Origin: a virus
IMG/VR virus record: IMGVR_UViG_3300007508_000014
Location: 1-41,833 of that record
DNA: 41,833 bases
Strand: one strand, 5' to 3'
Part shown: positions 6,175-27,649 of the stretch, in pieces
Numbering within the stretch: the stretch's first letter is position 1
Layout of the letters: the number at the start of each line of letters is the position of its first letter
Position numbers and translations under genes: made by a program
The notes under the pieces: model-generated
The model's database searches: none
The model's input: only the letters and a program-made list of their open reading frames with translations
What the model was told of the DNA's origin: nothing

Positions 6175-6489
6175 TTATGCTTGTGGTCCTGGGATCACGT
6201 TTGTAGCACAAGGCCCTTTCTCACTGTTAACTTCCGTAAATTCTACTCTCTGTCCTTCGGAAAGAGTTTTGAACCCTTCCATCTGAATTTCAGACATATG
6301 TACGAATAAGTCACGCGAGTCTACTTCCGCAGATAGAGCGTCACCGTCATTAGTGGTACTTGTTGATAAAGGGGTGGGAGTTATAAACCCAAAGCCTTTT
6401 TTATCGTTAAACCACTTTACTGTTCCTGTAGATACTCCATTACGAGGAGCTGTCATTGTTTCTTCTGTTACTTCTGTTACGTTTGTCAT
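6175..6489 (-). CDS. cold-shock domain protein
   Basis: 104 aa with a CspA-type domain: [18 protein letters not shown] (21-38; RNP1 KGFGFI at 31-36) and DLFVHMSEI (60-68; RNP2). A polar insertion (about 39-59, Ser/Thr/Asp rich) lies between the two RNP motifs, unusual against the roughly 70-aa family norm. An extra 20 residues precede the domain. Such proteins bind single-stranded nucleic acid and melt RNA structure. AAGGAA lies upstream of the ATG. Overlapping short frames just upstream (for example 6491-6574) might encode leader peptides but are not convincing. It ends at a strong terminator. Confidence 0.9.
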
Positions 6490-6561
6490 ATTATAATATG
6501 TTCCTTATTACTGTTGTTAGGTACTTTATTGTACTATTACTTACTTCTGTGTTACTGCGCT

Positions 6562-6651
6562 TTAACGGACGCATTGTGTTTGTTGTGTTTCCGGTACAGG
6601 TTCTTTTTTTATTTCTGGTATATCACCATATTGTGGGTATGCCAGTAGCAT
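6562..6651 (-). CDS. possible small ORF (29 aa)
   Basis: ATG (6649-6651) preceded at ideal spacing by AGGGAG, ending TAA. The peptide is Pro/Glu/Gln rich without a membrane segment. The ribosome binding site is the main support. It lies between the AAA+ gene and the cold-shock gene and may be a leader ORF of the latter. Confidence 0.4.
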   Translation of the reverse strand: MLLAYPQYGDIPEIKKEPVPETQQTQCVR

Positions 6652-6698
6652 GATCTCCCTATACTCGAGTCCTGCAATTATTGTGCACTTCTACTCTT

Positions 6699-8225
6699 TT
6701 AAAAAGGTAGCTTTTTGTTGGGTGACCCAAACTTGTCTTTCATTGAGTCGAACCCAATCTTTTTAGCAAGTTTCTGGTAAAACATGTCTGCGTCATCAGC
6801 ATACTTGTAAACTTCTTTTAGGTCTTCTTTCATAGAATCTTTCACTTCTTGCACTAATTTTGTTGTTATCTTTTCAGCTTGAGAAGATACTACATAAGAA
6901 AAAGTAGACTGTGCTAGCTCTTTTATCTGTGCACCTGACATATTATCTACAATAGGTTCAAGCTTTTTGGCTTGAGTTTTTGTGATCTTAAAGTCTGGTT
7001 CAAAATATATCTTTGCACAATCCACAGCGTCTTGCCCTCTCAATGTCCCTACTTCTAATAGTTTATCTATTCTTCCAGGACGTTGTATAATTCTAGGCTC
7101 AATTGCCTCAGGGAAATTAGTAGTGAAAATTACATAAGCCCCGTTTTTGTTTGGCTTCTGATTTACCCCGTCTAGAAAATTTAGCACACTTGATGATGCA
7201 CCGCCTGTTGGTGACTGTCCTCCGAACGCTGCTTCAGCATCCTCGAGTATTGCTATCGTAGGTACTCCATGTTTTGCACAAGATGCCAGATGACTTGCAA
7301 GTAAGTGTATTTCTGTACAAAATACTACACTTTTACTATCAGAGTGCTCACGCGCCACTCTATAGGCCATCGAGGTCTTCCCAGTTCCCGGAGGCCCGAT
7401 TAGTGCAACCTTTCTAGTCCCAGGCATTCCATATCTAGTGTATAGATCGACATTATTGAAAAAGAAGTCAAGATCTTTATCTAATGTTCCTATAGTAGGG
7501 TGTACTGTTGGTATCTTATTTGGTTTCTCAACGGGAGCGTAATATATCGTTCCGTGCCCGATATCTTCTAAAACATATGTTCCCGGTTTTGGCTTGGAGT
7601 TGTATCTCCGATGTTTGTGCAACATTTTTTTGTACTTGTACCAGGTTTTTGTTTCTGTAGCAGCTATGCCGTCGACTGAAGCATTCGCACCGCCTCCAGA
7701 TCTCCACTTTGCAAGATACATATAATACCGTGTCGTTTCATCTTGTTTCGTTACTTTATTCTTAACGGTTTCCTCAAAAGTAATCTTGAAGACGCCCAAC
7801 CTGTCCTCAGCAAGAATTTTACCAGGCTTGTACTTAACGGGTCTTAACTTAAAACTACAGTTCGGTACTATGTCTTGTGATAGAGGGGTAATGTCCTTGA
7901 TATGGAAAGTGCGCTGGTTATGTCTTCGAGCATGATGTCTCCATGCTACTAGCATTTCCCATTGTAATTCTGTATCACCTTCTGTTGTTACAAATCCGTC
8001 AGGATCCACTCCTTGTATCAGTGTGGGTACCTGTGCGGGTACCACTGCCTTAGCCTTACCCTTAGCCTTAGATGTATTTTGTCTTGCGGTTTTGGCATCG
8101 CCAGGAGTTTTTGTTTTTGCTGCAGCAGGTGTTTTTGCTGCGGCACCGGTTGATACAAGCAGACGGGCATTTTCTTTATATTGTTTAATTAAGTAATTAT
8201 TTACTATTTCAAATTTTGTCGCCAT
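6699..8225 (-). CDS. AAA+ ATPase with long N-terminal extension
   Basis: 508 aa. Residues 26-62 are Ala/Lys/Thr-rich and probably disordered. A phage-specific N-terminal domain follows (about 70-240). The classical AAA module has Walker A GPPGTGKT (277-284), Walker B IAILED (324-329), sensor-1 Asn in IFTTN (366-370) and the arginine pair of QRPGRID (381-387), as in FtsH/BCS1/proteasomal AAA proteins. All catalytic residues are present. No protease domain is attached, so a remodelling or chaperone role is likely. AAAGGAAA precedes the ATG. It ends in TAA and has no TGA codons. Confidence 0.9.
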   Translation of the reverse strand: MATKFEIVNNYLIKQYKENARLLVSTGAAAKTPAAAKTKTPGDAKTARQNTSKAKGKAKAVVPAQVPTLIQGVDPDGFVTTEGDTELQWEMLVAWRHHARRHNQRTFHIKDITPLSQDIVPNCSFKLRPVKYKPGKILAEDRLGVFKITFEETVKNKVTKQDETTRYYMYLAKWRSGGGANASVDGIAATETKTWYKYKKMLHKHRRYNSKPKPGTYVLEDIGHGTIYYAPVEKPNKIPTVHPTIGTLDKDLDFFFNNVDLYTRYGMPGTRKVALIGPPGTGKTSMAYRVAREHSDSKSVVFCTEIHLLASHLASCAKHGVPTIAILEDAEAAFGGQSPTGGASSSVLNFLDGVNQKPNKNGAYVIFTTNFPEAIEPRIIQRPGRIDKLLEVGTLRGQDAVDCAKIYFEPDFKITKTQAKKLEPIVDNMSGAQIKELAQSTFSYVVSSQAEKITTKLVQEVKDSMKEDLKEVYKYADDADMFYQKLAKKIGFDSMKDKFGSPNKKLPF

Positions 8226-8290
8226 TAATGTTTCCTTTAACTTTGTTTATTTAGCTTTATTACTGTTACTACTAGTTACGAAGTTATGTA

Positions 8291-8335
8291 GTTGTTACTG
8301 TAATTGTTATGTAATTGTTATGTAATTGTTGTTAT
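8291..8335. repeat. short tandem repeat, unit about 11 bp
   Basis: The unit GTTATGTAATT recurs three to four times, imperfect at the ends, between the AAA+ gene and the 69-aa gene. It could be a slippage product or part of the regulatory region. Confidence 0.6.
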
Positions 8336-8541
8336 TTTTGGGAGTGTACCCATGTTTTTTTAAGTATTTGTGCCATTTTACCTAAAATATCGTTAAAATC
8401 AGGTGTTTTTGTACTCATTTTAGGTATTTGTGCTAATTCTTCGTCTTTTTGGTCATAAATATAGAGATTTTGACGTTCAGGTTTGATAGGATGTTGTATT
8501 TTTAATACTTTCTGTATTTGTCGTTGTTTTTGTTCATTCAT
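8332..8541 (-). CDS. small basic protein next to the iteron region (69 aa)
   Basis: Start taken at ATG 8539-8541, preceded by AAAGG. An in-frame GTG at 8584-8586 would add 15 residues, but it lies inside an iteron and is less likely. The protein is Lys/Gln rich with a basic N-terminus (MNEQKQRQIQKVLK) and a helical C-terminus (FNDILGKMAQILKK). Its position beside the iteron arrays makes it a candidate iteron-binding protein or regulator, but no helix-turn-helix is obvious. Confidence 0.55.
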   Translation of the reverse strand: MNEQKQRQIQKVLKIQHPIKPERQNLYIYDQKDEELAQIPKMSTKTPDFNDILGKMAQILKKTWVHSQK

Positions 8542-8578
8542 GCTGGGTACCTTTGGTTTTGAGTTAGTAATAGTTGTA

Positions 8579-9074
8579 TTTACCACGTAAATGGCGGATT
8601 TACCACACGTTTACCACACGTTTACCACGCTTTTTTGGCGATTTACCACAAAAAATTGTAAGTGAATGCTATAATTGCTATTATTGCTTAACTTAGTGTG
8701 GAACTTGGGTTGTTGTGAAAAGGTTGTAAATCTTATTATTGCTATATTTAAGGTTGGTTCCTTCAAGTAAAAAAAAGAGGCCTTTTATACTATGTATAGT
8801 ATATTAGTTGTAGTATAAGTTTAGTATAAATGTTATTATTTACCACACTTTTATTATATAGGGCTACGTGTAGAAGCATTTTTTATTTTTTAGATGTTGT
8901 TTTTCTCCTTACGTAGGGGGCTAGTACTCGAAACACGTGGTAAGCTGAAAACAACACTTTATGTATCAGTACGTAACTTAAATTATTGTTAAATATACAT
9001 TCACAACCTTACGTGTGGTAAAGTTGTGGTAAATGCGTGGTAAGTACGTGGTAAATGTTAAAAAAACGTGGTAA
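8579..9074. other. putative replication origin or partition site: mirrored iteron arrays
   Basis: Twelve copies of a 7-mer are arranged symmetrically. TTACCAC (plus) begins at 8580, 8600, 8611, 8622, 8643 and 8840; its complement GTGGTAA begins at 8937, 9015, 9026, 9037, 9048 and 9068. Within each array the spacing is 11 or about 20 bp, so sites fall on one face of the helix. Many copies extend to TTTACCACACG or its complement. The AT-rich space between the arrays holds a palindrome (8787-8802, arms ATACTA/TAGTAT). No gene fits from 8587 to 9289. This matches iteron-type origins, centromere-like sites or a multi-operator switch. The 9-mer TTTACCACA resembles a DnaA box only loosely. Confidence 0.7.
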
Positions 9075-9079
9075 ATCAA

Positions 9080-9165
9080 TCATTATCATTGTTTGCCCCT
9101 ATTTTATTATTATTGTTTGCTCTTATTATCAGTATTGCTCTCATCATCAGTATTGCTCCTATTAA
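9080..9165. repeat. degenerate ATTATTGTTTGCTC-type tandem repeats
   Basis: Four imperfect copies of about 18-24 bases (ATCAGTATTGCTC, ATTATTGTTTGCTC and variants) follow the right iteron array. An AT-rich tract beside iterons could be a DNA-unwinding element; this is inference. From here to 9289 I see only weak hairpins and no gene. Confidence 0.5.
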
Positions 9166-9289
9166 ATACTCCGCAGGTGTTTTGTAATTGGTGCTTATAT
9201 AAAAAGGGATAGTCAGCCCTGCGAAATATGTTGCTTACATCCCTCTAGCAAATTTTATCTTGTTGCTAAATCACCGCCAATGGCACCTC

Positions 9290-9541
9290 TTATAATGTTC
9301 AGAGGGGCCAATTGAACGGGGACTTATCATTTCCTTTCTCAATTACAAAAATAAAAAGAGCTATTACTAACCCTATTGTTATTACGTAACTAAGAAAAAC
9401 ACCTAGTAGCTGTATTACTGAGAATACTATTGGTGCTAAAAAATAGACCAGTAATCCTGCAACTAGTAATTGAGATCCAAACAATAGGACATCACTGTGT
9501 CGTTCATTAATTGCTAGGATCTTGTCATAAAGTTTATCCAT
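9290..9541 (-). CDS. membrane protein, in-frame UGA near the C-terminus (83 aa)
   Basis: ATG (9539-9541). TGA at 9299-9301 is followed two codons later by TAA (9290-9292), so under code 4 the protein ends ...PFNWPL-W-T-L. Two or three hydrophobic spans (about 18-36, 37-55 and 56-68) occupy most of it. It overlaps the end of the 118-aa gene by 8 bases. A small phage inner-membrane protein of unknown role. Confidence 0.75.
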
Positions 9542-9890
9542 ACACTACCTCATTGAAAACTGCTAACTGTATTATTGTGTCGTAGTCATTTGCATCCATA
9601 TTACATACATCACTTGGATATTTTTGAGTATTATAATACTTCTCTATCCCACTTTTTAATTTTTTTAAGTTTAGTACTTTAAAAGATCCGTCGTCTTCGT
9701 AAAGTTCTAAGGAACCGCCTCTTGAAATGACACTGCTAGCAAATTCCCCGCCTTTATAATCATTACTAACAACGTTAGCTTTTTCGCACCAGTAGTTTAT
9801 TCCACCTTCTAATGCTCCTACTAAAAGATTGTCGACGTCATCTTCCGACAATGATATGTTTCTTTGAACTTTGATATTAATTAATTCCAT
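9534..9890 (-). CDS. conserved phage hypothetical protein (118 aa)
   Basis: The combination of SEDDVDNLLVGALEGGINYW, EFASSVISRGGSLELYEDDG and a C-terminal QLAVFNEVVYG matches a family I have seen in many phage genomes as hypothetical. Soluble, acidic, no membrane span. ATAGGAG precedes the ATG. It is the first gene of the leftward transcription unit. Confidence 0.8.
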   Translation of the reverse strand: MELINIKVQRNISLSEDDVDNLLVGALEGGINYWCEKANVVSNDYKGGEFASSVISRGGSLELYEDDGSFKVLNLKKLKSGIEKYYNTQKYPSDVCNMDANDYDTIIQLAVFNEVVYG

Positions 9891-13078: not shown

Positions 13079-14755
13079 ATGACTAATTTATTTGTGACTG
13101 AACATGGGTTCGAAAAAACTGCAAATACTAAATTAGACTCTGACCATACTCGCTGGGTGAAGCAAATTATCACCAACTTTTTAACGCAGTTTCCGATGCT
13201 ACAGGATCAAGAAGTTTCTGTACAATGGGTAAGCAAAGACGTAGAGAAAGGAACAGCAGTAGGTGCACTAAAAGTTGCGGGAGGAACAGTTCCCGTTATT
13301 ATTAACAATTATGAGCTATCAGCATTGGATGTTATTCTAATGAACGGAAGAGTATACCCATTAACACAGCTCACAATTCAAGAATTAATGACCAAAACTG
13401 ACCCTTTTAAAGGGGTTGCACAGTCTCCACCAAAAGGTGTGACTAGCTTGTTTTCTGGCAACGCACAATATTCACCGGTAGAGTCTGTTTTTAATAGCGC
13501 GTCCGGGACGGAACGTCCTGCTAAGTACGCATCATTCATAGAAAAAGTGTCGTCAGTCAGTAGGGATGACGTAGTTTCTATGTTGAAAGAAATAAATGAG
13601 GACCGAGACTTGCGTAATAATTTCATAACTAATGGACACGAGGCAGTTCTAGAGAAACTAGCTGGTAAAGAGTTCATGACTGAGGAAGGAGAGATGAAAA
13701 ATATGGTAAGAAACTTACCTATAGATAGACAGTTAGTATACTCTGATGACTTGGGGAACCGCTTTGTAAAGCAGGCGAATTCTTCCGTAGACTATGTATG
13801 GACTACTAAGATATCCGACAGCGAAGAAATGAGTAATTTGTTTGCTCAGGATGAAGAGACTGAAAAAACTGCTAGTAATGTTGTTGGGGAAGAAGAATCC
13901 GGTAGTATGCCTAAGTTAGGAAGTTACGGAGCTTGAAAAGTTGGAGAAACATTGACCAAGCCTTTTGAAATCATAGGCATGCAAAAAACTGCTGAAAACG
14001 GAAGTTTTGAGGTTATAGGGTGGACAGGGTTAGACAAAATAGCTTATTACCCGATTAGAGTTCATTCCGATAAGTTGCTTGACCATGACTCCGTACGAGG
14101 AGCCTTTTATGTACCAGGGAATGCAGAGTTTATAGAGATGGAGCAGGAAAAGGTTTCTAGCTTGTCAGACCAGATTAGGGACAAACAACCAGCAGAGAAT
14201 AATGTTTTTAAAGATTCGGTAGGTTTATATTCGTTTTCAGGACCTGAATTTGAGAAATACGGAGAAAGTAATTCTGTAAGAGATTTGTCAAAGACTGACG
14301 CTATTTGGACAGCAGTTCATTGTAATTGCCCAGAAAGTGTAGTAGCAGAAATTAGCAAGCTAGCTAATTGCAGCACTGTCCATATTAAAGAGCCCATTAA
14401 GTCACCAAAGTCGGTAAAAGATATAAAGCGTGACTTACTTGAAAAAGTGGGAGAGTTTAACGAGAAGGTTTCTATCATAATGCCTAACTTGATTAAAGAG
14501 GCTGCAGTTGTAGATGATTCTGCAACAGTAGACGCTTTATTATCGCTAGGAATGGTAAATAAAGGTAATATCATGGAATTTGTGAATATGGTTCCACAGT
14601 ACGAAATGGTATTATCAGAATTAGCTAAAATGCTCATTATATCAAGACTTGGTAAAAGCCAAGTTCCTGAAGACGCAATTCAGCGCGCAATGAGCGGATT
14701 ATCGGAAGTAATTTTAGCATTAAAACAAGTTGGCACTATAGTAGCTGACCAATAG
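13079..14755 (+). CDS. large structural protein with repeated KTA motifs, in-frame UGA
   Basis: 558 aa when TGA at 13934-13936 is read as residue 286; otherwise it would split into 285- and 267-aa pieces in the same frame. The start has AGAGGAA upstream. KTA tripeptides occur in FEKTAN near the N-terminus, in EKTASN just before the TGA, and in GMQKTAEN just after it. The pattern KTA[EN] recurs in the head proteins of this genome and may mark prohead-protease sites. N-terminal segments such as VPVIINNYELSALDVILMNG suggest a globular domain. Possibly an internal or tail-associated virion protein; not assigned to a family. Confidence 0.7.
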
Positions 14756-16411: not shown

Positions 16412-17197
16412 ATGAGTAAAAAAGCAGAACATGTATTTCAAAAGCTAGCACAACTTCATGGAGATCCACTAGAAAACACTCCTAAGTCTGTCACTGACGC
16501 TGCTAATCAAAACAGTACACAACCAAATAAGCCCTCAAAATCAACTTACCAAAGAGCGTTTAGTTTAAAAATTGGGGGTGGGCAAAAAGAGCCTGTACAG
16601 CCAGCAACGTCACCTAATATTCCTGACGACTACCAAAAAAGAATAGATGCTATGCGAAAAAAATATGGAAGTGCAGTGCCTTCTAATTTAGAAAAAATCG
16701 CAATTTCTCGTAAGTATTTACTCGATAAAGTAACGGGAGCGTTGGGGAAGACTTTCTTTTCACACACAACATCTAAGGAAGCCTTACCATCTATTTTAAG
16801 TTCGAGTAAATTGAAGACTGGGGCATCGTTAGGTAATATGGGGCAAAAATTGAGAAATTTGGACAGTATGAGTCCTGATGTCCTCAGTAATTCTATAAGT
16901 ATGGGGAAAGATGTAGTATACTCTAAAAGTGGGGACAAGTTTTTTGCTGTAATTAAAAGAAACTCGCCTAGTAATGCTCCAACTCATTTAGGAAAAGAAA
17001 CTTTGTTTAAAGGGGATATTCCTCTTTCCACAAAATCTACTCTTGTAGCGGTTCCAAGAGCATTGGTACCTTCTTATAAAAAAAAGTTTAGTGGTTATAA
17101 GTTTATCGCAAGTGAGGATATACCAAAAAGTAAAGTTGTAGATTATAAAAAAGCTACAATGGATCCTGAATTGCTAGATTTTTTTTTAAAAAGCTAG
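16412..17197 (+). CDS. tagged protein with ADP-ribosyltransferase-like features
   Basis: 261 aa. Begins with the tag MSKKAEHVFQKLAQL. A low-complexity Pro/Ser/Thr linker (about 20-70) leads to a C-terminal domain containing FFSHTTSKEALPSILSSSKL (115-134) and DVVYSKSGDKFFAVIKR. H-x-T-S followed by LPSIL and a downstream G resembles the first strand-helix of the KptA/DarT-type H-x-x ART folds. The catalytic Glu cannot be fixed by eye. T4 Alt is a packaged, injected ART, which makes a tagged ART attractive. AGAGGCA lies before the ATG; ends TAG. Confidence 0.55.
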   Translation: MSKKAEHVFQKLAQLHGDPLENTPKSVTDAANQNSTQPNKPSKSTYQRAFSLKIGGGQKEPVQPATSPNIPDDYQKRIDAMRKKYGSAVPSNLEKIAISRKYLLDKVTGALGKTFFSHTTSKEALPSILSSSKLKTGASLGNMGQKLRNLDSMSPDVLSNSISMGKDVVYSKSGDKFFAVIKRNSPSNAPTHLGKETLFKGDIPLSTKSTLVAVPRALVPSYKKKFSGYKFIASEDIPKSKVVDYKKATMDPELLDFFLKS

Positions 17198-17242
17198 CGA
17201 GATAAGGGCTAAAGAAAATTTAACAGGAGACACTCTATTTAA

Positions 17243-17983
17243 ATGTCATACAAAGCACAACACGTTTTTCAAAAAATAGCGGTCAGTTTTGGAGTTACCC
17301 GCTCTGCTTTACGTGCTTTAAAAAAGGCTGGTATAAACTACACAAGAGATGCTTCTGTTGCATTTGATAATGCCCAGCATTTAGTAAAAGACAATAAAAG
17401 TGTAACTACAGCTCTTTTTTCTCCTAGTAAAAACCTTGTTTTTGTTGGAAAATCTGCGACAAGTCCCACAAACACGTTATTACATGAAATAGGGCATGCA
17501 TTTTCTACGGGGAAAGCTGATAAACAAGTAAGAAGGGCGTTTTCTGACTATAAAAGGGGTAGAATATGGGGTCACCAGTTTACTGACCTACTTAATAGAA
17601 AAGCTTTGCAAATAGAGTATAATGCTAATAAAAAAGCTAAGAAACTAATAAAAAAGTACTCCAGTAACCCTCAAAAAGACTTAAAAGACTTTAGTAATAG
17701 GGTAAATCAGGATATAAAGACATATCAAGAAAATTCTATCTTAGATTTACTTCCTTTAAAGGGGTTGATTGCCCAGGCACATGCAGTAAACCCGAAACGT
17801 TATGAAGCTTTAGTAGATTTACGTAAAAGTTTAAAAGGCTCACATGACATAGAAGGACAGTTTTGGGCAGCAAGACATATTAGGAATATGAGTCCGGAGT
17901 TTAAAAAGGCTTATTCTGATGCTTACTACAAAAATAAAGCACGGTTTCATAGAGATGGGTTTGGGAATCTAAAGAGAGAATAA
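17243..17983 (+). CDS. tagged zincin-like metalloprotease candidate
   Basis: 246 aa. Tag MSYKAQHVFQKIAVSFG, then a domain with TNTLLHEIGHAFSTG (HExxH at 81-85) and a possible third ligand Glu125 in LQIEYNANKK. A beta-strand region (LVFVGKS) precedes the HExxH helix, as in zincins. The C-terminal part is long, helical and Lys-rich. AGGAGA lies upstream of the ATG. Together with the tag this suggests a protease delivered with the DNA. The substrate is unknown. Confidence 0.65.
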   Translation: MSYKAQHVFQKIAVSFGVTRSALRALKKAGINYTRDASVAFDNAQHLVKDNKSVTTALFSPSKNLVFVGKSATSPTNTLLHEIGHAFSTGKADKQVRRAFSDYKRGRIWGHQFTDLLNRKALQIEYNANKKAKKLIKKYSSNPQKDLKDFSNRVNQDIKTYQENSILDLLPLKGLIAQAHAVNPKRYEALVDLRKSLKGSHDIEGQFWAARHIRNMSPEFKKAYSDAYYKNKARFHRDGFGNLKRE

Positions 17984-18581: not shown

Positions 18582-19925
18582 ATGGGTAAAGCAACGAATA
18601 TTTTCACTAAACTGGCTGAAGTCAAGTCAAAAAACCCAGAACCTTATACAACATCTTTTAAAGAAGAGATTAGTCCGTATTATGACGGAAATGTAGAAGG
18701 TGGTTTTAGAGGAGCAGTCAAAAGTGCAAAAAAAGCACAAAAAAATTCCACCCATGGCATGAATACACCGGCTTTTAACTTACGTAACGCACGTATAAAT
18801 ACCCAGGTTCCAATAAGTTTCGGACAGATGCCAAAAGGATACGAAGGCAACGCTGGCGTGTTCATTCCGGAGGGATATAGCGTTCCGGATACGAATTTTA
18901 CTTATCCTCGCTCCATTATTAGGTTAATGCCTATTAAAAAGTTTCCGTCGAAGGAGTCCTATAAGTCTACTGTCGATCACGAGTTAACTCATTTTATAGG
19001 GGGAGATATGAAGGACAATGAAGCCGAAGTGCTTGATAGAGGTAGGGCTTACAACAGTAGACGTGGAGAGTTAGACCCAAGAGCAGCACATATTAAGCGT
19101 CAGTACGCAAAAAATAAAAAAGTTCTCGTTAACACGCCAGAAAAAGCGGAACAGGCTATCAATTGGTATAAAGAACAGCTCAAAAAACCGTCCCGAAAAC
19201 GAAAAGCTGCTGGTGTCCATACACATGGAGGAGAAAACCACTGGTTAATTGGCCCTAGGGGAGAAAAAAATACCAATTATTTGATAAATAGGATGCCTGA
19301 AGTAGTGGATAATACAAAAAAAAGCCCTAAGAACCCTCTTGATCAGCAAGAACAACCAAAATTAGCACATATTATAAATGTGGGAGAACATAACATGAAC
19401 AAAGCAGAAACACTGTTTAGTAAGTTAGCACAAGCAATGCCGCGTAGATTGACCCAAAAAGAGTTAGGAGTGCGTATTACGCCTGACCAAGACATCAAAA
19501 GAACCGAAACACAGGGGTTAGTTACCTTTAATAAAGGGGATAATACTCAAAAGAAGCGAGATATTGTGAAACAGCTGTCAGAAGGTGTTACTGACAACCC
19601 AAAAGTGCAGGAAGTTATCTCTAATAACTGAGAAAACGCTGAAGTAAAGACGGATTCCACCTTTTTACCCGGAAAAATGATGCCCGATGGGAAGCGGAAA
19701 CTAACTTCTGTGAAAAATTCTATTAAGCATAATAATGCTTGGCACCCTTTCTGGACAGGAGAACCTAACAAGGACGCGTCAAGAACACGAATAGAAGATT
19801 ACCTTACAAAAAAGAAGTCAGTTACTAATGCAATTGGGCGCGATTCAAAAACAGACTATGATGTAGAGATTGAGGACTCTAAGTTCTTTAATAACCCTTC
19901 ACCGTCTTACTTGGATTTGAAGTAG
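18582..19925 (+). CDS. tagged zincin-like metalloprotease fused to a second tagged segment, in-frame UGA
   Basis: 447 aa, start preceded by AAGGAGAA. Tag MGKATNIFTKLAEV, then a domain with STVDHELTHFIGGDMKDNEAE (HELTH 133-137; Glu147/Glu149 as third-ligand candidates). At residue 272 a second complete tag appears (MNKAETLFSKLAQ), preceded in the DNA by GGGAGAACATAAC, which looks like a ribosome binding site and spacer. This suggests gene fusion or an internal start. TGA at 19629-19631 is residue 350; reading through it joins the C-terminal part ending in TAG. Under the standard code there would be two fragments. Confidence 0.65.
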
Positions 19926-22483
19926 TGGACGAGTCAAGAAAAAAACGTTTAAAGTATCTAGCGGCCGCCGGAGTCGGAGGGGCAGGATTAGCAGTTGGAA
20001 GAAAATTAAAATTACCTAAATATCACGAGGCTGCGCAAAGGTTTAGTAAAAATATTGGTAGTAACTTGACTTGGTACGGGTCCGACGATGTTAAAAGAAT
20101 GAAAGATCTTGGAATTACCTATAAGAGCGAGGCGGAATCTTTGGGAATAGGCGTAAAACCAGTAAAAGACATAAAGTCTGGTGATAAACTTCCTGGCGGT
20201 TTTTACGGACACAGAGGGGACATGTCAAAGAACTTTGCGTCTGACAGTGACTTCTCTAAAGCAAATATTCAAAATAAAGTTTATAATATGCCGTCAGTGA
20301 CTAAAGATTTGGAAGATAACTGGAAATGGTACGAGCAAGTAAAAGGAGAAGGTGTACCAAAAACTGTGAGAGGTGACCAAGTTAAAAGGTACGAAGATGT
20401 AAAAGATGCAGTTGGTGATGATTACATAGTAAAATCTAGATTTGGGTGAGGCAATAAAGGTATAGTTTCAAAAAGCGATTTTAAGTCTAGCCCAAAAAAG
20501 TACTTGAATAAAGATTACATTATTCAAAAGAAAGAAAATTTAAATAGGGAGTATAGAGTTTTAGTTGGTGAAGGTAAAGGTATATACGTTATACCTAGAA
20601 AAAATAATGAATTTGTAACCGTGCCCACTCCCCACTTAGCTAAGGAGAAGGGCAAGGTACTAAGCAAGGCAGAGGAGATTATAGGAAGAATGAAGAAAAA
20701 TCGTAATGAGTTACATAGCCTTGACTTAGGGGTTACAAAAAAAGGGAAAGTAGTTGCGTGGGAAGATAATTCCGCACAAGGGGGGAATATGTTCCTCAGT
20801 GGGGACCACTTAGACGCTTTCAAACTGTTTGCTAAAGGAAAAATTAGGGTGCCGTACGTGCAGGCTAGAAAAGGGACGATGTTACAGGGTGCAAGCGTAG
20901 CCGGATCAGCCGGGATAGTAGGGCATGAGAAGTTTGCGTTCTCAAGAGATTCTTTTGATAAAGCAAAAATTAAACGTGACCAGGGTTTAAAAAAGATTGA
21001 CTCTATCACAAACTTAGACAATGTTCAGTCCGTAAAAAGTTTAGACAAGAAAACTAGAAAAAATTTAGGAGTAGCAGGGGCTTTTGGAGTTAGCGGAGGT
21101 GCGGCAATTATGGCGTCTAAGAGATTAAAAGATTTTAGAATACAGTCCAATGGTGACCCGAACGTGAAAAATATAGCTGTCTTACATTCACCAAAAAAAG
21201 TAGGAGGCGGGCACATGGCTGCAGCCCAGGCTACAGTTGAGAAGCTAAACAAAATTCACGGTGTAAACGCCAGAGCTTTCGACACGGGGGATTATGGTAC
21301 TTCCACCTTTAATAATTTGTTAAAAAAAGTTGTACCAGCCAGTGACTACGAGAAAACGGTGCAGAGAGACCCCGGCAGTATCTTTAGATCTCACTTAGCC
21401 ACTTTTCCTAAACAGAATAAAGTCTCAGGCGTATTAAATAAAGTAAAAAACTTTTTTACCGGATTAATCGCCGAGGGGCATTCAGAGCTGAGCAGCGAAG
21501 GAAGGCAGTTATCTAAAGCATTAAGAGGTTTTAAGCCAGACAAAATAGTTTCAACATACTTTGGGTCAATACCCGGATTAAAGGACTCAGGTAGAGCCGT
21601 AGATTTGGTTACCACAGATTATGAGATATCACCTTTTATTTGGAAGACAAAGAACGCTGGAACGTACTTTACTTCAAGTGACGCTGCTGAAAAAACAATG
21701 AGAGATGCCGGCGTTTCTGCTGATAGGGTTGTAAATTTAGGGGACGTTCCCGTTAGTGCAAAAAGTTGGCCTAAGATTAAGACTGGGACTAAAGTAAAAA
21801 AAGTAGTAGTAATGGGAGGTCAGCTGGGTCTCAGGACGCACGAAGTAGGGCCAGCAGTAGCAAAGCATTATTTAAAAAAGGGTAAAGATGTACAGGTTAC
21901 TATATTACCAGGAAAATCGGGCACGTTTGCGAGACAAGAGTTGTCCAGGGGCAAGAAAAAACTACCAAAGAATGCCCACGTATGGGACCCACAGCTAGAA
22001 GGAGGTGGAAAGTCTTACATGAAGTATATGGCGGAAGCAGACTTAATTGTTACTCGACCAGGTGGCGCCACTACTGCAGAGCTTAGAAGTTTGGGTAAGC
22101 CTACAGTTACTTTTAGTGAGGTTCCAAACGATTGGAAAAACCATGAAGGTGGGAACATAAGAGCTCTTACCAGAACAGGGCAGGCTAAGCATATGGAACT
22201 TCCATTAAAAATTGATACCACATCTAAAGAATTACATAAAATAGTATCAAAATCTCTTGATAGTGTAGATAAAGATTATAGCCAGATGCTAGAAGGAGGT
22301 AAAAAGGCTGCTAAGGAGTCTCATAAAAACCAAAGTAGTGTAGCACAAAAAATACTTTCTACCCCGTCTCTTTCATCAAAGTCAAGGTCACTTCCCTTTA
22401 AAGCTTGGGTAGGTACTAGCGCTGTGGCTGGGTCTTTAGGGTTAGTAGGTGCTTATTTAGCAAGTAAGTCTAGTAGAAAATAA
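19925..22483 (+). CDS. ATP-grasp-like domain fused to GT28/MGDG-synthase-type glycosyltransferase, in-frame UGA
   Basis: 852 aa from GTG (overlapping the previous TAG) to TAA, with TGA 20447-20449 as residue 175. A short N-terminal hydrophobic Gly/Ala segment comes first. Residues about 165-290 resemble an ATP-grasp fold: YIVKSRFG-W-GNKG (nucleotide loop, containing the UGA), DYIIQKKEN, EYRVLVGEG, DLGVTKKGKVVAWEDN. Residues about 415-770 resemble GT-B family 28: IAVLHSPKKVGGGHMAAA at the N-lobe start (GGGH 427-430) and ADLIVTRPGGATTAELRSLG (about 704-723) as the nucleotide-sugar motif. A C-terminal hydrophobic helix ends it. It may ligate and glycosylate an envelope or surface substrate; this is inferred. 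I know no such phage fusion. Confidence 0.7.
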
Positions 22484-22928: not shown

Positions 22929-23741
22929 ATGAGTATAAAATCAAACAAAATTTTTAAAAAGCAAGCAGGTGTAATGAACGCAGTTCATACTGGCTTAGAT
23001 GTAGTTGGCATGATACCCGGATTCGGAATTGTAGGAGACCTGGTAAATGCGGGTCTATATACGGTTCGTGGGCAAGCTGGTAATGCAGCAATATCCATGG
23101 CAGCTGCCATACCTGTTGTAGGTCATGCGGCGACGGCTGGTAAATGGACTGCTAAAGCTGCAAAGGCTGGAAAAGTATTTGCTCACGGAGGAGGCTCTAC
23201 GGCTAAAGTTATAGGTGGTGGTAAAAACACGATCGGTAAGGTCCTAAAGGACTCAGCCGGAAATCCGTTAGTTAGAGAGTCTCTAAAAAATACAAGGTTT
23301 ATGCCTAAAAGTATGCAGTCAACTTGGAATGTTTTACGTGCTCCGGTTCAGAATTTAAGGGGCGCAACAGGAAGTTTGGTGTCTAAGGTACCAGGCGGTA
23401 AAGCATGGTTAAAGAGATCAGATGGGTGGGCTAAAAGCATACAACCGGAAGATTGGCTAAAACACCGACAAACTACCATTAACCCTTTTAAAGCTTTTAA
23501 GGGGAGCAAGGGATACGCACGAAGCGTTTTTAATCCTAAAAATTACAAACAAAAAGGGTTTATACAGGGTAAGATTCTCCGTGGTGCTGGAGACGTAGGA
23601 AAAGGTTTTAGATCAGATAGATTAATTATAGACCCCATTTTAAGTAAAATTTTACCGGAAGAAAAAGCACTTACCACTCCTAACACACTTAAAAGTGAAA
23701 GATACTTAAATATAGTAAACAGTCTTTATGACCGATATTAA
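22929..23741 (+). CDS. tagged protein with pretoxin-like hydrophobic domain (270 aa)
   Basis: Tag variant MSIKSNKIFKKQAGV. Residues about 18-80 match the style of the membrane-linked pretoxin segment found before toxin domains in polymorphic toxins: LDVVGMIPGFGIVGDLVNA, then NAAISMAAAIPVVGHAATAG and Ala/Lys repeats. The remaining 190 residues are basic (about 100-270) with no toxin motif I recognise. Its end overlaps the next gene by 14 bases. It may help a packaged effector cross or sit in the host membrane; inference. Confidence 0.6.
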   Translation: MSIKSNKIFKKQAGVMNAVHTGLDVVGMIPGFGIVGDLVNAGLYTVRGQAGNAAISMAAAIPVVGHAATAGKWTAKAAKAGKVFAHGGGSTAKVIGGGKNTIGKVLKDSAGNPLVRESLKNTRFMPKSMQSTWNVLRAPVQNLRGATGSLVSKVPGGKAWLKRSDGWAKSIQPEDWLKHRQTTINPFKAFKGSKGYARSVFNPKNYKQKGFIQGKILRGAGDVGKGFRSDRLIIDPILSKILPEEKALTTPNTLKSERYLNIVNSLYDRY

Positions 23742-27005: not shown

Positions 27006-27189
27006 AACTCTTAGAGAAAGAAGAAAAAAAGAAATAAAAAAACGTTCGGTCAGCAAACCAGCTGTCGGGAGACAATGCATTGTATGCGGTGGTACTAACA
27101 CAAGACTTCACATAGTAGTGGATTCTCAAGGTAGTAAGCGAAGGCGTACAAAGTGCTTCAATCCCAATTGCAAAGCTGAGCGTGGGTAA
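26992..27189 (+). CDS. small zinc-finger protein (65 aa)
   Basis: Overlaps the previous and next genes. Very basic N-terminus (TLRERRKKEIKKRSV), then CIVC (29-32) and a second knuckle CFNPNC near the end. Together they form a C2-x-C4-type zinc ribbon suited to nucleic-acid binding. TAA stop. Confidence 0.7.
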   Translation: MSLAKTLRERRKKEIKKRSVSKPAVGRQCIVCGGTNTRLHIVVDSQGSKRRRTKCFNPNCKAERG

Positions 27190-27649
27190 CGATAAAAGAA
27201 AAAAACAATATAAAGATGGTTATACACACCTTCCAACTAATTTAGATATAAAGGATTGGGATTATGTTTACCAGATTCATAAAAATAATAACGGAACACA
27301 TTTTGATCTTAGGCTTTATTGCCCCAGTGATTCAGAAAGTGTTTTTTCGTTTTCAGCAAAGCACAACGTGTTAGACAGAAACTTTCCTACACCATTAAGA
27401 AGGAATAGGGACCATACCCAAGACACGCTGACTTTTGAAGGTACCTTTCAGTCTAAGAAAGGAAAGACAAATACTTTGGCTACGATAGAGAGCGGAGAAG
27501 CAACATTAATAGATATAGATAAAACAGGAATGATATTCGAAACAGAAAAACGAATCTTTAGATTAAAGCATATAAGCGGTAAAAAGTACGCGTATGTACC
27601 TGTTTATGAGAAGTTAACACAGAATAAAAATTACATAGAAGAGATATAA
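27182..27649 (+). CDS. LigD-type 3'-phosphoesterase-like domain protein
   Basis: 155 aa from GTG inside the previous gene. DYVYQIHKNNNGTHFDLRLY (27-46) reproduces the core Q-x-H...H-[FY]-D-x-R-L of the LigD phosphoesterase domain (His33, His40, Asp42, Arg44). It is followed by a TLTFEGTF-like strand and a KKYAYVPVYE end. In bacterial NHEJ this domain trims 3'-phosphates and ribonucleotides. Here it is a stand-alone unit amid accessory genes; it may heal DNA ends after injection. The second half is divergent, so activity is uncertain. Confidence 0.65.
   Translation: MGNDKRKKQYKDGYTHLPTNLDIKDWDYVYQIHKNNNGTHFDLRLYCPSDSESVFSFSAKHNVLDRNFPTPLRRNRDHTQDTLTFEGTFQSKKGKTNTLATIESGEATLIDIDKTGMIFETEKRIFRLKHISGKKYAYVPVYEKLTQNKNYIEEI

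Follow-up and report, generated by a model that had tools for sequence, protein, structure and literature searches.

A well-supported ATP-grasp module and a GT28 glycosyltransferase are fused in a single 852-residue protein of the uncultured phage whose 41.8-kb, 38% GC virus record (IMGVR_UViG_3300007508_000014, 41,833 nucleotides; the window) was analyzed here. The families themselves are known, and their combination is new. The best explanation for it, to which we assign a probability of roughly 0.45, is a two-step enzyme that modifies the envelope, is tethered to the membrane and is possibly delivered by the virion. Coordinates of its features are collected in Table 1.

The reading frame begins with GTG at position 19925, ends with TAA at 22481-22483 and contains one in-frame TGA, codon 175 (nt 20447-20449). 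Translation with table 11 breaks it into two pieces, 19925-20449 (174 aa) and 20504-22483 (659 aa). The sole relative found is carried by another uncultured phage (IMGVR_UViG_3300003494_000020, L002) and is 70% identical over residues 4-852. Codon alignment revealed that codon 175 is TGA in the window gene and TGG in the L002 copy, and that the reverse holds for Trp codons 50, 133 and 687. When three other genes were included, the number of Trp positions with TGA in one phage and TGG in the other rose to eight across the four genes, with exchanges running both ways; one L002 TGA in the same comparison of homologous genes is aligned to an Ala codon. None of the 43 code-4 ORFs ends in TGA (29 end in TAA and 14 in TAG), and 10 of the 120 Trp codons in the window are TGA. 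The exchanges at Trp positions establish UGA as a sense codon, a minor codon for Trp, in this phage, and rule out its use as a stop, as Gly (code 25) or as a site of programmed readthrough. Reassignment of TGA to Trp in phages has been predicted before (PMC11210395). No tRNA genes were found in the window.

The original prediction had described a single 852-residue product containing a UGA codon and split by the standard code, and this holds, with exact coordinates. It had also stressed that the UGA lies in the Gly-rich nucleotide loop. The position is correct (inside K170-SRFGWGNKG-I180) but the emphasis is misplaced, because UGA serves as a minor Trp codon and TGG takes its place in L002, which makes its location in the loop incidental. 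Elsewhere in the window, the minus-strand genes at 1-9890 contain no sure in-frame TGA, the sole case, in 2273-2713, lying four codons ahead of the stop. Most TGA codons fall in the plus-strand late genes, in numbers too small to test.

Comparison of the window and L002 genes gave pN values of 0.14 for the ATP-grasp core, 0.15 for the GT C-domain and 0.20 for the GT N-domain, with pS at about 0.7-0.8 and synonymous sites near saturation. Both halves are under equally strong purifying selection, with both enzymes being kept.

Searches of IMG/VR with the whole protein, its two-row alignment or pieces of it (each half alone and conserved fragments) returned nothing beyond L002 and the window contig itself. 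Scans with a neighbor gene and the terminase recovered contigs of the same lineage, none of which, except L002, reaches the fusion gene. No relative of the fusion protein was found in GTDB genome contigs; these scans, like those of IMG/VR, rely on exact short peptide matches, by which distant relatives can be missed. In tblastn searches of 50,697 phage records (INPHARED), neither half gave a match at E<0.01, and matches at E<10 were at chance level. PHROG and PADLOC yielded no match, and no published phage ATP-grasp and GT28 fusion was found in the literature covered, mostly outside subscription papers. The tblastn results bear out the earlier view that the arrangement is unmatched in known phages.

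Table 1. Features of the fusion gene and protein (window coordinates; res, residues)
Feature	Position	Strand	Basis
ATP-grasp + GT28 fusion ORF (code 4), 852 aa	19925..22483	+	Full-length L002 copy at 70% identity
N-terminal Gly/Ala-rich weakly hydrophobic segment, res 12-30	19958..20014	+	Hydropathy; stronger in L002
Putative pre-ATP-grasp domain, res 43-140	20051..20344	+	Position and model secondary structure (inferred)
ATP-grasp catalytic module, res 141-312	20345..20860	+	Weak Pfam R2K_2, hhalign to R2K.2, Foldseek
Catalytic K170 and 9-residue Gly-rich triphosphate loop SRFGWGNKG-I, res 170-180	20432..20464	+	Invariant in both copies; loop rule PMC4431377
In-frame TGA read as Trp175	20447..20449	+	TGG in L002 relative
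ExR motif E209-Y-R211, amide-ligase-type ATP-grasp	20549..20557	+	Invariant; aligned with R2K.2 ExR
D267 and ExN (E280-D-N282), Mg/ATP motifs	20723..20770	+	Invariant; aligned with D and ExN of R2K.2
HEKFA, res 334-338, near-match to KxA motif between the halves	20924..20938	+	Sequence alignment; HEKFS in L002
Middle weakly hydrophobic Gly/Ala segment, res 380-398	21062..21118	+	Hydropathy; conserved in L002
GT-B N-terminal (acceptor) domain, MGDG_synth type	21155..21784	+	Pfam MGDG_synth E 4.1e-6, above cut-off; L002 1.3e-7
GGGH signature, res 427-430	21203..21214	+	Aligned with GGGH of MGD1 4wyi
GT28 C-terminal (UDP-sugar donor) domain	21803..22318	+	Pfam Glyco_tran_28_C E 1.6e-6, above cut-off, profile 2-161 of 166
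Donor motifs PGGATTAE (res 712-719) and NHEGGN (res 739-744)	22058..22156	+	Aligned with PGGITLTE of 9wde and QEAGN of MGD1
C-terminal weakly hydrophobic segment, res 829-847	22409..22465	+	Hydropathy

Judged by its sequence, the C-terminal half is a complete GT28 enzyme of the GT-B type, nearest to the UgtP/YpfP diacylglycerol glucosyltransferases. Two Pfam families matched it above their cut-offs in both copies, as expected of the complete MGDG-synthase/MurG-type half originally proposed: Glyco_tran_28_C over residues 627-798 (28.7 bits versus a cut-off of 22; 22.9 bits in L002) and MGDG_synth over residues 527-606 (27.4 bits versus 25; 32.3 bits in L002). The nearest NCBIfam entry was diglucosyl-diacylglycerol synthase PRK13609 (UgtP/YpfP), with an E value of 2.8e-9 and 36 bits versus an equivalog cut-off of 500, and the PDB match was the processive diacylglycerol beta-glucosyltransferase 9wde (E 2.9e-5). 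The fusion has in common with UgtP/YpfP and MGD1 the order MGDG_synth followed by Glyco_tran_28_C, the GGGH acceptor motif and the PGG-T-T-E and E..GN donor motifs, but it scores far below the equivalog cut-off, carries an attached ATP-grasp module and is phage-borne. GT28 enzymes bearing GGGH as a rule use lipid-linked acceptors. Matches of the fusion protein to Pfam DHHA1 and Epimerase_2 were below cut-off and were discarded.

The identity of the N-terminal half as ATP-grasp, which the original prediction had named as its refutable element, is well supported by motifs, a recurrent weak R2K_2 match, profile-profile comparison and a Foldseek search with a poor model. This superfamily is marked by a Lys at which RAGNYA strand 2 ends and, in the kinase-like half, by an acidic strand-4 residue and a final strand bearing ExN (PMC4431377); K170, D267 and E280-D-N282 are present in both copies. 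So too is R211, corresponding to the strand-1 arginine (ExR) of the kinase-like half, a mark of amide/peptide ligases, and the module was placed with these ligases because of it. Pfam scans of the isolated half gave R2K_2 as the best match in both copies (E 0.002 and 0.00077; 18.5 and 19.8 bits versus a cut-off of 26.2) and R2K_3 in one (E 0.04; 14.5 bits versus 26.3), these being the only matches; a phage Myrna protein, used as a control, scored 56.6 bits. Profile-profile comparison by hhalign with nine R2K.2 sequences from plasmids and phages gave a probability of 89% (E 2.1e-6), with ExR, D and ExN in register, as against 0.1% for the GT half, the negative control.

The AlphaFold2 model of residues 43-312 was poor (mean pLDDT 49.5), and the order of its secondary structure elements agrees with ATP-grasp. 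Among the Foldseek matches listed for this model, 50 of 50 were ATP-grasp enzymes (best E 6.1e-4). VIA-align of the low-confidence model gave Z values of 4.9 or less, mostly over ∼70-80 aligned residues, with nearly all rows being ATP-grasp. The full protein, modeled from two sequences, reached a pLDDT of 34.5 and was unusable on its own. The sole PDB profile matches of the ATP-grasp half, eL22 ribosomal proteins (E 0.013), aligned over the Gly loop and were rejected as chance.

K170, the Gly-rich loop, ExR, D and ExN are common to the fusion and the ATP-grasp amide/peptide ligases (R2K families 2 and 3, RimK/LysX, D-Ala-D-Ala ligase and PurK). R2K members, however, are said to have lost the 9-residue Gly-rich loop and the linker Lys (PMC4431377), whereas the fusion protein keeps both, as SRFGWGNKG and as K146 in VPKT, the latter assigned to the linker by eye. 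In addition, the loop lysines are 8 apart rather than 5 as in the aligned nine-sequence R2K.2 set, and the scores lie below every Pfam cut-off. Because the loop and linker Lys are retained, the fusion protein is no clean member of the R2K clade.

Hydrophobic segments at both ends of the protein had been taken as a hint of membrane attachment. They are real but weak, and a third segment, at residues 380-398, had been missed. The best 19-residue Kyte-Doolittle means in the window protein were 0.96 (N-terminal), 1.23 (middle) and 1.33 (C-terminal). All three segments are conserved in both copies, with peak means of 0.96-1.43, below the usual level of a transmembrane helix. A peripheral or ejection-type contact with the membrane is possible.

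The fusion gene sits in a late block of virion type. It shares 1 nt with the stop codon of the upstream gene, and the downstream gene begins 2 nt after its end. Downstream on the same strand are genes for ribosomal protein S21, the large terminase, a probable head maturation (prohead) protease and the major head protein. Several neighbors of unrelated sequence, on both sides of the fusion gene, begin with an MxKAxxxFxKLA tag. The motif [FILMVY]xKxA has 19 occurrences within the N-terminal 30 residues of the proteins examined, versus 2.6 ± 1.6 after shuffling, always on the plus strand (window 13079-38448), and 9 versus 1.3 expected in L002; the motif was chosen after the window sequences had been viewed, so the shuffle count somewhat overstates the evidence, and L002 is a partial, non-independent check. 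Seven copies each are present in the proteins at 13079, 32912 and 34394 (scaffold-like and protease), and the major head protein has one near its N terminus. By analogy with T4 and SPN3US, the motif looks like a set of prohead-protease sites and a capsid-targeting tag (PMC5694885). The window neighbors share a short N-terminal tag and a repeated prohead-protease-like motif with the T4 internal proteins and Alt (capsid targeting sequence) and the SPN3US ejection proteins, but the window motif is [hydrophobic]xKxA rather than LxE/AxE. Both copies of the fusion protein are without the N-terminal tag; its own sequence thus lends virion packaging no support, and packaging is read from the company that the gene keeps.

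Inspection of the neighborhood revealed several further features. The ORF at 18582-19925 has a HELTH zincin motif and a weak MPTase-PolyVal match in its first part; an internal ATG at 19395, with GGGAG upstream, opens a fresh tag (MNKAETLFSKLA), and L002 has two separate ORFs there. This ORF probably represents either two genes joined through stop loss or nested starts. The tagged neighbor at 17243 (within 16412-17983) has a HEIGH zincin-like motif, and the one at 16412 contains a stretch, FFSHTTS...I, that looks ADP-ribosyltransferase-like by eye, for which databases gave no support. A long Gly-rich hydrophobic stretch (GLDVVGMIPGFGIVGDLVNAGLY...) in the 22929-23741 protein resembles, by eye, the pre-toxin hydrophobic domain of polymorphic toxins. 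A possible LigD-type 3'-phosphoesterase domain is encoded at 27182-27649 (Pfam LigD_N, E 0.011, below cut-off). The L002 terminase (13300-14391) diverges from that of the window after ∼140 residues, with an apparent intein-like insert (CKTHLHQYLTLRGWVDVKDL...), and the terminase matches of two other contigs, L024 and L025, cover residues 128-513 only.

The preferred reading, a membrane-tethered envelope-modifying enzyme, can be described by the following model. One frame would yield one bifunctional enzyme, in which the ATP-grasp module would activate a carboxylate as an acyl phosphate and couple it to an amine, and the GT28 module would glycosylate a membrane-borne acceptor, e.g. diacylglycerol or a polyprenyl-linked precursor, with a UDP-sugar as donor. 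The weak Gly/Ala-rich segments that flank and separate the two modules would hold the protein at the membrane. Judging by its gene context, the protein would be produced late, alongside head and ejection-type proteins, and may ride in the virion, enter the next host and modify an envelope lipid or wall precursor at entry. The virion-type neighbors (prohead protease, major head protein and terminase), the shared tag and the HELTH protein speak for this model. Against it stand the missing KxA tag, the sub-transmembrane segments, the poor models, an R2K_2 score below cut-off and the existence of two copies only. A more specific version, in which the virion enzyme would attach first a sugar and then an amino-acid-like group (or the reverse) to a membrane lipid or polyprenyl precursor, chemically rewriting the host envelope at entry as one of a set of tagged, ejected effectors, is rather unlikely.

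Virion-delivered multi-enzyme proteins, termed polyvalent, are a known phage strategy (PMC5512222). A polyvalent protein unites at least two enzymatic domains, unrelated to each other, in a single polypeptide of phage or plasmid origin, as the fusion does, and a virion-gene neighborhood and a zincin-like neighbor are further points in common (Iyer et al. 2017, PMC5512222). The fusion differs in having just two enzymatic domains and in that its virion delivery is read from gene context. No glycosyltransferase was found in the main text of that paper.

The same two enzyme domains could instead act outside the virion, late in the infected cell and on its envelope, in superinfection exclusion, receptor change or the making of a glycolipid for lysis or release. 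This is a real possibility, if not a probable one: the fusion sequence has no packaging-like tag, GT28 membrane-lipid enzymes work from the cytosol on the inner leaflet, and a late-operon position suits either timing, but tagged virion-type proteins are encoded nearby on both sides. It is clearly unlikely that the protein is instead a modifier of host or virion proteins, in which the GT half would glycosylate the target to which the ATP-grasp half would attach an amino acid or peptide (a reaction proposed for R2K and RimK-like enzymes). The usual lipid-linked acceptors of GGGH-type enzymes argue against it, as do the membrane-type segments conserved in both copies, although the structural matches include RimK, TTLL6 and graspetide ligases, and phage ATP-grasp relatives have been predicted to be protein modifiers (PMC4431377, PMC7824862).

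The strong divergence from every known family would suit a degenerate virion component with its folds kept and activities lost, but the ATP-grasp and GT28 catalytic motifs are all intact and invariant in both copies, making this very unlikely. Standard-code ORF calls do break at the TGA, as would be expected of two separate proteins with an end and restart there, or of a sequencing artifact. That reading is extremely improbable given the TGA/TGG exchanges, the lack of ORFs ending in TGA and the constraint that runs on across codon 175.

Phage glycosyltransferases and phage ATP-grasp ligases are each known. Their pairing in one protein points to a reaction on a membrane-borne substrate of a kind that phages are not known to carry out. 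Ordinary gene calling with code 11 would overlook the fusion. The tagged neighbors offer a testable model for how effectors of this kind get to the next host.
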